A stretch of DNA of 7,742 nt, taken from NCBI GenBank assembly GCA_028718265.1, contig JAQUMG010000085.1:1-7742 (forward strand). Direction: 5' to 3'. The first letter of the stretch is position 1, and every line of letters begins with the position of its first letter. Below are positions 2,847-5,547 of this stretch, in pieces. The DNA is from Candidatus Omnitrophota bacterium. Lineage in GTDB: Bacteria > Omnitrophota > Koll11 > JAHIPI01. Both the position numbers and the translations under genes were made by a program. The notes under the pieces are model-generated. The model did not search any database and was not told the origin of the DNA. It saw nothing but the letters and a program-made list of their open reading frames with translations.

Positions 2847-3887
2847 TTATTCGATGGGATCGATGATAGGAACCCTTCCGCCGCGGCCCGGGTTATCTCT
2901 GAATCCGTCGCCTTTCGGAAAAGCTCCGAAGTGAACAACATTATCGCGATAGACAAGGCCGTTGCATATCATCTGCGATACGTATGCCTGAAATTCGGTT
3001 CCGAGATCCAGTCCCGGCTGGCGGGAAAAATCGGCCCTGTAGATTTCACCGAACAACCTGCGCGCATCATTCTGCGTCAATGTATCGCGCGAATATTCCT
3101 CCGCGATGGCCAGCGCAGCGTATGATTTGAGAAGTTTCGGCCAAAGATGAGCGAAAACATCAGGCGCTGAAAATATGTCTACGCCGATTATCCTGCCGTT
3201 TACACCCACTACGACGCCGACGGCGTCTCTGTCCAGCCTCGGTATATTGGATAACTTTTCTACATAAACGTCCATCTTGCTCTTGGCTTCTTTATTATTA
3301 TATACATCCTGCAGGGCTCCGGTGGGTGACTCTACGCATAAATTTTTTGAATATTCGGAAATCCTGTCCCAGACACGCGACTGTTCTCTCTTTTCGTAAA
3401 GCATACCTCGCAATACCGGTTCAGCCTGTGTCTCTTCGCTCGCGAACGTCGAACTTTTAGCCGTCCAGCGGCCGTGTTCGCAGCAATAGACGGGCAGAAT
3501 TATCCCCTTTGACTTCGGCCCTATCAGGGTATCTCTCGCTACCAGCCTGTCCTGCCTGCAACCGGTGAGTATCTCTCCGCATACAAGAAGGATATGATAA
3601 TCAGAATTGTTGCTTATCCTGACCTCCGGAACGCTGCCGCCGTTTAACTCCGTGACTGTCAGATAGCCCCTCGCCACTGCCTCATCCAAGGTAACGCAAT
3701 TTATCCTGTTTTTAACACCCGGCCCATATATAGGAATTATAGTCAGGTTCCTATAATCAAATGGGCTGCCCAGCTCCAGCGTCTTCAAATAATTGGATAT
3801 CTCGTACGTTTCGGCGTACGATGCCTTCTCTCCCAAGCCGGAGAATACAAAGGCCAGACCTATCAACAAGCATATTATCCGTTTCAT
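2847..3887 (-). CDS. Secreted ARPP-1 (DUF6569) family protein
   Basis: The 346-aa protein has a signal peptide (residues 1-25, MKRIICLLIG...KASYA, cleavage before E26) and a domain that I recognise as ARPP-1, formerly DUF6569. Family signatures visible are YLTVTELNGGSVPEVRISN (75-93), GEILTGCRQDR (104-114), LPVYCCEHGRW (131-141) and the distal VGVVVGVNGRIIGVDIF (223-239). Catalytic residues of this family are not known to me; the conserved Q-D-R and C-x-E-H-G-R-W patches are the likely functional sites. The C-terminal tail (from about 325) is rich in G, R and P. AGAGGT lies 6 nt before the ATG. The gene has its own ECF-type promoter and a structured leader, and is closed by a terminator, so it is a single-gene unit in the regulon of the sigma factor upstream. 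The function is unknown; export suggests a periplasmic or cell-surface role. Confidence 0.85.
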   Translation of the reverse strand: MKRIICLLIGLAFVFSGLGEKASYAETYEISNYLKTLELGSPFDYRNLTIIPIYGPGVKNRINCVTLDEAVARGYLTVTELNGGSVPEVRISNNSDYHILLVCGEILTGCRQDRLVARDTLIGPKSKGIILPVYCCEHGRWTAKSSTFASEETQAEPVLRGMLYEKREQSRVWDRISEYSKNLCVESPTGALQDVYNNKEAKSKMDVYVEKLSNIPRLDRDAVGVVVGVNGRIIGVDIFSAPDVFAHLWPKLLKSYAALAIAEEYSRDTLTQNDARRLFGEIYRADFSRQPGLDLGTEFQAYVSQMICNGLVYRDNVVHFGAFPKGDGFRDNPGRGGRVPIIDPIE

Positions 3888-3967
3888 CTCACACCTCTCA
3901 ATTTTCGGTAGAAAATTGATCCCGAGCCGTTTAGGCGAGGGACTACCTTTCTACCATAACTTCTCAT
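3884..3967 (-). CDS. Possible 27-codon upstream ORF in ARPP-1 leader
   Basis: An ATG at 3967 opens a 27-codon frame beginning MRSYGRKVVPRL and ending RKLRGVR. Its TGA (3886-3884) overlaps the ARPP-1 start codon (3887-3885) as ATGA. TAAGGAG (3984-3978), an excellent Shine-Dalgarno sequence, lies 10 nt before its ATG and has no other gene to serve. The product would have eight basic and no acidic residues and no similarity I recognise. It could be a leader peptide that couples translation to the exported protein. Alternatively the frame is chance, since the same bases form strong hairpins. Supported by position and ribosome binding site only. Confidence 0.35.
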   Translation of the reverse strand: MRSYGRKVVPRLNGSGSIFYRKLRGVR

Positions 3968-3985
3968 CCGGTTTATGCTCCTTAC
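3888..3985 (-). promoter_or_regulatory. Structured leader with two competing hairpins
   Basis: This is the transcribed leader between the ECF promoter and the ARPP-1 start. Structure A pairs GGTAGAAA (3955-3948) with TTTCTACC (3914-3907), enclosing an inner stem (GTCCC/GGGAT and GCC/GGC, 3943-3919). Structure B pairs CAATTTTC (3918-3911) with GAAAATTG (3906-3899) around the 4-nt loop TACC, ending directly next to the ARPP-1 Shine-Dalgarno sequence (3898-3893). A and B share bases 3914-3907 and cannot form together. This arrangement fits a translational switch. It matches no riboswitch class I can name. Confidence 0.5.
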
Positions 3986-3991
3986 AGCTAA

Positions 3992-4019
3992 TTAGACAGG
4001 AGGCTGGGTAAAAAGTTCC
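3992..4019 (-). promoter_or_regulatory. ECF sigma-type promoter of the ARPP-1 gene
   Basis: On the minus strand GGAACTT (4019-4013) and TCTAA (3996-3992) are separated by 16 nt (3997-4012). GGAACTT is the classic -35 element of RpoE-like ECF sigma factors. Both elements and the spacer length are identical to those of the promoter before the ECF sigma gene in this window, and both -10 elements are preceded by TG. Transcription should start near 3985. A 12-bp perfect palindrome, TGAAAATTTTCA (4029-4040), lies 9 bp upstream of the -35 element and could be an A/T-rich UP-like element or an operator. Confidence 0.85.
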
Positions 4020-4068
4020 CGGAATCATTGAAAATTTTCAGGAGGTTATTCAGGATATCAGGAGGCTG
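3997..4068 (-). repeat. Three short direct repeats (CAGGAGG / CCTCCTG)
   Basis: CCTCCTG on the minus strand (CAGGAGG on the plus strand) occurs at 3997-4003, 4039-4045 and 4059-4065, and the first and third copies extend to a shared 10-mer, CAGGAGGCTG. A partial copy, CAGGAT, lies at 4051. They lie between the anti-sigma stop and the ARPP-1 promoter; one copy is inside the promoter spacer. On the plus strand they resemble Shine-Dalgarno sequences, but no plus-strand gene follows. The role is unknown and chance is possible. Confidence 0.4.
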
Positions 4069-4076
4069 CCTGGGGA

Positions 4077-4904
4077 TTATTCGGCCGTTACCAGTTTTAT
4101 CTGCACTCTAATCGGGCCCTTGGTTTTCATTTCCTCTTTGGGCTGGCCGCTCTGGGGTTGGGATACTGTGCCTAAAGTACCCAACTTTTTCATAAACAAT
4201 GAGTAATTCGGGGATGGTATCTCCGCGATGATAAACTGCGGAACGGCCGTATCTTTTCGGCGTTCAATAGATATGACTTTTCCTTCTGCAAGTTTTACCA
4301 GGTCTTCTACTTTTAAAAGCGTACCCTTTAAATCCAAAGGTGCTTCCGGCACGGACATTTTTTCCAAAACCATACGATTCCCGGCCTCTTCCTGTTCTTC
4401 ATGAGGAAACGTTTCTGACGCATCATACGCCGTCTCCGGCACCTCGCGTTGTATCAGGAGCACCAGTTCAATAGGCTTGCTTACCGGCTCACTTATTCTG
4501 TCCATCGTCTTTACATAAGCCTTCGCAATTTTGTAATCTCCCGCCTTCCGGGAGGAATATATATTAAGTACGGTAGTAGTAACCACTACAAGAAGAAGCA
4601 GTGCCGCCAAAATACCCGCGGTCTCAAACGACACCTTCGTCCTGACGGGTGTAAAGACTTTCTGCATTATTCTTTCGAATTCAGACGTCCTGTCCAGCCG
4701 GTCGTGGACTTTATCGAGAAAATCGGCGGGCGGCTTTACTTTTTCCATAGAGCCGATCTCTTTCATGCAAGTTTTAAAAAATGCCAGTTCTTCGCGGCAA
4801 TCGCGGCAGGCGGCAATATGCTCTTCGAACAACGTCCTGGTGCCGGGATCCAGCGCACCGTCGATATATTCAGATAAAAGTTCTTTGGCTTTTGAGCATT
4901 TCAT
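4077..4904 (-). CDS. Zinc-finger, membrane-spanning anti-sigma factor
   Basis: The 275-aa protein is the partner of the ECF sigma factor encoded directly upstream; sigma TAA and this ATG abut with no gap (TAAATG). Residues 1-45 form a zf-HC2 anti-sigma domain with C3 and H29-x3-C33-x2-C36, the ZAS-type zinc site. One transmembrane helix lies at about 96-115 (AGILAALLLLVVVTTTVL). Residues after 115 would be extracytoplasmic: an acidic linker (about 150-185) and a compact domain at about 192-274 (LKGTLLKVEDLVKLAEGKVISIERR...FIIAEIP...LFMKKLGTLG). The last domain recalls DUF4349/DUF2275-like sensor segments, but I am not certain. Known: such proteins hold the sigma factor at the membrane until a signal releases it. 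GAGGAG lies about 10 nt before the ATG. Confidence 0.9.
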   Translation of the reverse strand: MKCSKAKELLSEYIDGALDPGTRTLFEEHIAACRDCREELAFFKTCMKEIGSMEKVKPPADFLDKVHDRLDRTSEFERIMQKVFTPVRTKVSFETAGILAALLLLVVVTTTVLNIYSSRKAGDYKIAKAYVKTMDRISEPVSKPIELVLLIQREVPETAYDASETFPHEEQEEAGNRMVLEKMSVPEAPLDLKGTLLKVEDLVKLAEGKVISIERRKDTAVPQFIIAEIPSPNYSLFMKKLGTLGTVSQPQSGQPKEEMKTKGPIRVQIKLVTAE

Positions 4905-5519
4905 TTAAATCGCGCTCCTCAGTTTCTCGGCAAGCGCCTGCCTTGCTCTCGCAAGTCTGGATTTGACCGTGCCGATTTTGTAACCGCTTATTTCGGCCAT
5001 CTCCGCATAAGAGAGGCCTTCGATATCGCGCAAAAGTATTATCATCCTCTGGTCGGGGGGCAGTGACTCTATCGTCTGCTGTATGAGTATTTCTTTCTCT
5101 TTTCTTTCAAGCGCGGCTTTGGGTGACGGCGAATCGTCTTTTATGTCGATAGTATTCGTTTTCCGGCAGTCTTCGTTATCTCTCCCGCCATCGATGGCTA
5201 TCATCTTTTTACTGTGGCGGAATTCCAAGGACGACAATCTGTTTTTGCAGGTATTAACCGTGACCCTGTAAAGCCACGTTGAAAAAGCCGACTCGAACCT
5301 GAAGCCCGCAAGCCCCCGGTAAACTTTTATAAACGTCTCCTGGGCATAGTCATCGGCTTCCTCGTAATTCCCCAGAAAACGGTAACACAGATTGAAGACA
5401 TTGTCCTTATATTTCAATACCAGCTTGTCAAAGGCGCTTTTGTCGCCGTTCCTGAAAGCTTTTATCAGCGCCGAATCTTCCTGATTGCGCGTATTTTGCC
5501 TCTCTGCGCTTTCATTCAT
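4905..5519 (-). CDS. ECF (RpoE-like) RNA polymerase sigma factor
   Basis: The 204-aa protein has the two domains of an extracytoplasmic-function sigma factor and no others. Region 2 lies at about 18-95 (LIKAFRNGDKSAFDKLVLKY, then DDYAQETFIKVYRGL at 56-70, then STWLYRVTVNTCKNRL at 80-95). Region 4 lies at about 145-202 (LPPDQRMIILLRDIEGLSYAEMAE, then the helix-turn-helix GYKIGTVKSRLARARQAL). Region 4.2 recognises the -35 element, here expected to be GGAACTT. The ATG at 5519 directly abuts the -10 element of its own promoter, and no Shine-Dalgarno sequence is visible in front of it. A transcript from that promoter would begin inside the gene's first codons, which leaves the true start open. The gene follows galT by 36 nt and is followed without gap by the anti-sigma gene. 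Confidence 0.93.
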   Translation of the reverse strand: MNESAERQNTRNQEDSALIKAFRNGDKSAFDKLVLKYKDNVFNLCYRFLGNYEEADDYAQETFIKVYRGLAGFRFESAFSTWLYRVTVNTCKNRLSSLEFRHSKKMIAIDGGRDNEDCRKTNTIDIKDDSPSPKAALERKEKEILIQQTIESLPPDQRMIILLRDIEGLSYAEMAEISGYKIGTVKSRLARARQALAEKLRSAI

Positions 5520-5547
5520 TTAGACAACTTTTACCCTATAAAGTTCC
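5520..5547 (-). promoter_or_regulatory. ECF sigma-type autoregulatory promoter
   Basis: On the minus strand GGAACTT (5547-5541) and TCTAA (5524-5520) are separated by 16 nt (5525-5540), with TG before the -10. It is the same promoter as that before the ARPP-1 gene. It fills the gap between the galT stop and the sigma ATG. Its position implies positive autoregulation, which is usual for ECF sigma operons. The -10 touches the sigma ATG, so the start site would fall at about 5514, inside the annotated reading frame. Confidence 0.8.

Follow-up and report, generated by a model that had tools for sequence, protein, structure and literature searches.

The closest described counterpart of the locus analysed here is the RpoE (sigma E)/RseA system of Escherichia coli, in which a sigma factor that uses a TCTAA-type -10 box is encoded next to a membrane anti-sigma factor, has its own promoter and acts on exported targets. 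The -35 box of RpoE is GGAACTT (PMC8103513). The window, by which we mean the whole stretch of 7,742 nt of Candidatus Omnitrophota DNA that was analysed, resembles this system in its GGAACTT -35 box, its TCTAA-type -10 box, the neighbouring membrane anti-sigma factor, the sigma factor's own promoter and the exported target; in the relatives L172 and L173 the likeness extends to the target itself, DegP/HtrA. It differs from RpoE/RseA in that the sigma factor scores under the RpoE cut-off, the anti-sigma factor is of the zf-HC2 type, the target is an ARPP-1 protein, two sites occur in the stretch and the sigma promoter overlaps the start codon. The target seen in the window is ARPP-1 and not the DegP-type protease of an RpoE-type regulon, and DegP was found at the corresponding slot only in L172 and L173. 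A second set of loci, the sigma/zf-HC2/VIT-VWA loci of Desulfobacterota, shares with the window the operon order, two promoter classes and an exported target that is usually in the same slot, but the target is VIT-VWA instead of ARPP-1 and the gap between promoter and sigma start codon is mostly 4-5 nt, whereas it is 0 in the window. Our searches of an open-licence library turned up no paper that connects ECF sigma factors with ARPP-1, with VIT-VWA targets or with Omnitrophota.

Analysis of the protein domains encoded in the window bore out the gene assignments of an earlier, sequence-only reading (ECF sigma factor, anti-sigma factor and ARPP-1), with hits over cut-off for all three. The ECF (RpoE-like) sigma factor gene (5519-4905, minus strand, 204 aa) encodes Sigma70 r2 and r4_2, with PF04542 and PF08281 over cut-off, which is the domain composition of an ECF (group IV) sigma factor; region 1.1 and region 3 gave no hit in the domain profile search. 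Since the protein scored 169.5 bits against the RpoE equivalog TIGR02939, under the cut-off of 236.15, it is classed as RpoE-like and not as RpoE. The anti-sigma gene (4904-4077, minus strand, 275 aa) begins directly after the sigma gene, and its product has an N-terminal zf-HC2 domain (PF13490, 47.3 bits, cut-off 22.2) and one hydrophobic stretch, read by eye; the scores of curated anti-sigma models against it were under cut-off. The ARPP-1 (DUF6569) gene (3887-2847, minus strand, 346 aa) encodes a full-length member of its family, matching PF20208 with 240.1 bits (cut-off 27) over positions 2-297 of the 297-position profile, and carries an apparent Sec signal peptide, also read by eye. The AlphaFold model of this protein had a pLDDT of 88.9, and its fold comparison gave no convincing match. 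The nearest named relatives of the ARPP-1 and sigma proteins (73% and 67%, respectively) are both from Omnitrophota MAG records and probably lie on one contig, which hints at one further syntenic pair; that contig was not among the matches listed in the anti-sigma homologue search. Elsewhere in the window, the minus-strand gene at 1651-2445 encodes a protein with 4Fe-4S domains and, by eye, a flavodoxin-like N-terminus, and it adjoins a CRP-type cNMP-binding gene at 1174-1638.

The two copies of GGAACTT-N16-TCTAA claimed by the sequence-only reading proved exact, both on the minus strand: GGAACTTTATAGGGTAAAAGTTGTCTAA at 5547-5520, abutting the sigma ATG, and GGAACTTTTTACCCAGCCTCCTGTCTAA at 4019-3992, upstream of ARPP-1. 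Scanning both strands with GGAACTT-N14..18-TCTAA returned these 2 matches in the window and 0 in 200 dinucleotide shuffles of it, and the looser GGAAC-N16..20-TCTAA recovered the same two sites and no others, in agreement with the claim that no further pair of boxes is present. The same reading had described the boxes, the 16-nt spacer and the TG before the -10 box as identical; this holds for both boxes, for the length of the spacer (16) and for the TG ahead of TCTAA, but the spacer sequences of the sigma and ARPP-1 sites differ. The second site is followed by a 104-nt ARPP-1 leader (3888-3991, minus strand) with a Shine-Dalgarno-like GAGAGG ahead of the ATG. A possible leader ORF of 27 codons, MRSYGRKVVPRLNGSGSIFYRKLRGVR (3884-3967, minus strand), lies behind AAGGAG, and its stop codon overlaps the ARPP-1 ATG (ATGA), an arrangement typical of translational coupling.

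Comparative analysis covered 291 genomes of Desulfobacterales, which we take to be the order sampled because it is that of the Desulfonema magnum genome (G004), and 395 genomes of the phylum Desulfobacterota. A close sigma orthologue was present in 20 of the 291 genomes and in 14 of the 395, 12 of them new, and these Desulfobacterota proteins are 47-57% identical to the window sigma factor. In all 20 Desulfobacterales orthologues the sigma start is immediately preceded by a site that departs from the motif at no more than 2 positions and has a spacer of 16, which together with the window site suggests that the sigma factor's own operon lies behind its cognate promoter motif, as in ECF systems. 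A site with at most 2 mismatches was also found near the sigma start in 12/12 further phylum genomes, one of them with a spacer of 17 and two with GTCAAA as the -10 box, so that a like promoter accompanies the sigma start in 32/32 sigma-bearing Desulfobacterota genomes. At the sigma start of L172 and L173, where the -10 box is GTCAAA, an in-frame ACG lies 4 nt past that box, at the place where most relatives have their ATG (4-5 nt). In Desulfonema magnum (L005, 7989-10410), a diverged sigma gene (39%) precedes a fusion of a zf-HC2-like start to a Wzz-like protein, which appeared by eye to be coiled and of exopolysaccharide type.

A second copy of the site precedes one exported-protein gene in 25 of the 32 genomes, and this gene, encoding a VIT-VWA protein in 23 and DegP/HtrA in 2, usually lies directly behind the anti-sigma gene. 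With the strict pattern GGAACNTT-N13..15-TGTCTAA, 17 of the 20 sigma-bearing Desulfobacterales genomes yielded a total of 27 matches, of which 16 stand before sigma, 11 before VIT-VWA and 0 elsewhere; a reversed-pattern control in the 20 genomes yielded 7. When slightly different -10 boxes were allowed, a site before VIT-VWA was detected in 16/20 of these genomes, 12 of the sites lying no more than about 2 kb behind the anti-sigma gene, those of G209 and G306 about 5 kb further on and those of G160 and G225 elsewhere in the genome. G257, G322, G376 and G384 showed no second site, and their contigs stop shortly after the anti-sigma gene. Among the 12 additional phylum genomes, 7 have the site with VIT-VWA and 2 have it with DegP/HtrA (L172, L173); G460, G562 and G753 had neither second site nor target gene in the stretch examined. 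The VIT-VWA target is an exported protein of roughly 790 aa, TIGR03788-like and under that model's cut-off, with a TonB-C/AgmX-like end (L125, L135). The VIT and VWA domains were tested on the L125 and L135 proteins, and the others match the L125 protein at 53-68% identity. The L172 target matched the DegP/HtrA model TIGR02037 with 508.7 bits (cut-off 416.2), and the L173 protein is 82% identical to it.

These counts bear on the question of which sigma factor uses the sites, since genuine sites might still be read by another ECF sigma factor that the genome encodes and whose specificity overlaps. More distant ECF paralogues do exist: in Aminicenantia (L015-L042), 26 of 28 loci have a related GGAAG-N-CGTC(T/C)AA before the paralogue's own gene, which is a clean group-specific autopromoter. 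The strict pattern, however, is mainly found with the sigma orthologue (17/20 sigma-bearing vs 14/271 other Desulfobacterales genomes) and a like site stands before that very sigma gene in every one of the 20, and we regard use by another sigma factor as improbable. One site was read in each of 13 of these 14 other genomes (G212 was left out): 4 were before VIT-VWA genes, 1 was before a sigma gene and 8 were before nothing clear.

An Aminicenantes sigma orthologue, 51% identical, has the exact motif before the sigma gene, with a 101-nt leader, and GGAACTT-N15..17-TCTAA has only 2 matches in that genome, one of them at sigma; for a second Aminicenantes orthologue the contig begins inside the sigma gene. 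In Krumholzibacteriota, the sigma gene occurs in 8/80 genomes, and GGAACC...GTC(T/C/A)AA lies upstream in 5 of the 8, this being a loose pattern that also matches elsewhere in those stretches. In three of these genomes a site stands ahead of, or coincides with, the called start of an apparently exported protein of ~360 aa that precedes sigma. Such a protein is encoded directly before sigma in four Krumholzibacteriota (L217 395-1483, L219 338-1480 and L222 286-1371, all on the plus strand, and L220 589-1632, on the reverse complement of the stretch examined), and it matched Pfam in 0/3 and NCBIfam in 0/2 of those tested. It is perhaps a further occupant of the effector slot, and we offer it as a lead.

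The spacer sequences separate the sites into two classes, with consensus GGAACaTTTcggaatAAttATTGTCTAA at sigma sites and GGAACTTTTTccCctCCtcCTTGTCTAA at target sites. We trained a position model on sites from other genomes, 28 of them at sigma and 20 at targets, and kept the window out of training. The 28 were taken from 33 sigma sites; G637 (spacer 17), G636 and G678 (other -10 or spacer 17), G753 (a near-copy of G613) and the extra genomes of the strict-pattern control were left out. Leaving out one genome at a time, 23/28 sigma sites and 17/20 target sites were assigned correctly. Among sites that were never trained on, 7/8 were correct: the targets of G306, G274, G262, G334 and G421 were called target-type and the sigma sites of G432 and G753 sigma-type, and the real target site of G209 was misclassified as sigma-type (-6.1). 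From the spacer alone, the window sigma site scored -19.2 bits, sigma-type, and the ARPP-1 site +10.3 bits, target-type. Of all the evidence, this match of class argues most strongly for the ARPP-1 site as a true target promoter of the sigma family.

The proposal of the sequence-only reading that ARPP-1 is a direct target of the window's sigma factor thus appears well supported by comparison, through the target-type spacer and the two-site layout that recurs in Desulfobacterota. Because the model trained on Desulfobacterota calls its site target-type, ARPP-1 would fill the target slot of an RpoE-like regulon, and we consider it very probable that the window holds a minimal two-promoter envelope regulon of this kind, with ARPP-1 in the slot here. 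The alternative is a chance match, with ARPP-1 expressed from an unrelated promoter. ARPP-1 behind GGAACTT-N16-TCTAA is a single case, that of the window, and at the ARPP-1 loci elsewhere neither the motif (0/60) nor, within 1.5 kb, a gene for a sigma or anti-sigma factor (0/60) was found, none of the 60 being linked to an ECF sigma gene. ARPP-1 is present in 37/291 Desulfobacterales genomes, and it was found together with the close sigma orthologue in 0/20 of the sigma-bearing ones. Against this singularity stand the 200 shuffles empty of the motif, the position behind the anti-sigma gene and the target-type spacer, the last two of which agree with the VIT-VWA cases elsewhere, and they make a chance match highly improbable. 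The expectation that the motif would be conserved before both sigma and ARPP-1 genes held for the sigma genes and for an exported-protein gene, which in Desulfobacterota is VIT-VWA or DegP and not ARPP-1; the 60 ARPP-1 loci examined outside the window, which have no sigma neighbour, lack the motif.

The position of the sigma promoter complicates the second half of the proposed regulon, namely activation of the operon by its own product. In the window, TCTAA (5524-5520) is followed at once by the sigma ATG (5519-5517), a gap of 0 nt. The gap was 4 nt in 13 and 5 nt in 12 of 33 Desulfobacterota orthologues (25/33; the 32 Desulfobacterota genomes plus G432), the start codon having been chosen by hand as whichever ATG (or GTG/TTG) was closest to the aligned start; the remaining gaps were 3 (two), 0 (two: L174 and L175), 10 and 13, and two orthologues had no ATG there. 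The window ATG is the homologous start, as 96 of the 120 listed homologues, window included, have the same N-terminal length to the conserved FD-LV block, and 47 begin MNE. Another ATG, 4 nt past the window sigma ATG, is out of frame and runs for 16 codons. Among mapped ECF promoters, TCTATA of Tt-rpoE1 lies at -11 to -6 (PMC3397946) and the promoter of S. meliloti SMc01149 ends CGTCCTTGGAATg, where g is the RNA start (PMC6180224). When they are lined up by the C of the -10 box, the RNA start falls some 5-6 nt beyond TCTAA. Because the gap of 4-5 nt meets this predicted RNA start, the sigma start codon of the relatives would be at or within about 2 nt of it, and their sigma mRNA is probably leaderless.

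In the window, RNA from the sigma promoter is predicted to lack the sigma ATG unless the start site is unusual; since this ATG precedes the predicted RNA start, positive autoregulation of the window sigma operon is less certain than activation of ARPP-1. If the RNA did start past the sigma ATG, the sigma factor would come only from galT read-through, and the sigma-dependent promoter would raise the anti-sigma factor (negative feedback) and ARPP-1, whereas in most relatives the site would drive sigma positively through a leaderless mRNA. This reading draws on the gap of 0 where 25/33 relatives have 4-5 nt, on the mapped RNA starts cited above, on galT, which ends 36 nt upstream on the same strand, and on the sigma ATG, which, unlike eight other gene starts inspected, lacks a Shine-Dalgarno-like sequence at the normal spacing (the nearest AGGG ends 14 nt upstream). 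We nevertheless judge it unlikely: the RNA start positions are predicted, two Desulfobacterota relatives (L174 and L175) also have a gap of 0, and translation of sigma could be rescued by an unusual RNA start site or by initiation at a codon other than ATG, for which the in-frame ACG that follows GAGAGG 27 nt downstream is one candidate. It is likewise doubtful that in lineages whose gap has shrunk to zero, such as the window's, the promoter no longer yields translatable sigma mRNA, so that a once positive loop now raises nothing but the anti-sigma factor and an exchangeable exported effector, here ARPP-1.

In the RpoE-like regulon that we favour, the membrane-bound zf-HC2 anti-sigma factor would hold the ECF sigma factor until an envelope signal frees it, and sigma with core polymerase would then transcribe two promoters with the same boxes, one for the sigma/anti-sigma operon and one for the exported-protein gene behind it. 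The occupant of the slot would vary with lineage, being ARPP-1 in the window's Omnitrophota lineage and VIT-VWA or a DegP-type protease in Desulfobacterota. The sequences, the recurring two-site layout and the match of promoter class are observed; we infer the dependence on sigma, the action of the anti-sigma factor, the signal and any function of ARPP-1. These data would give the uncharacterised exported ARPP-1 family a concrete regulatory context, and its functional grouping with DegP and VIT-VWA proteins suggests a role in envelope maintenance. They also indicate that the promoter pair of a sigma/anti-sigma module may persist across distantly related bacteria even as its exported target is exchanged, and that the sigma promoter of this module usually sits on its own start codon.
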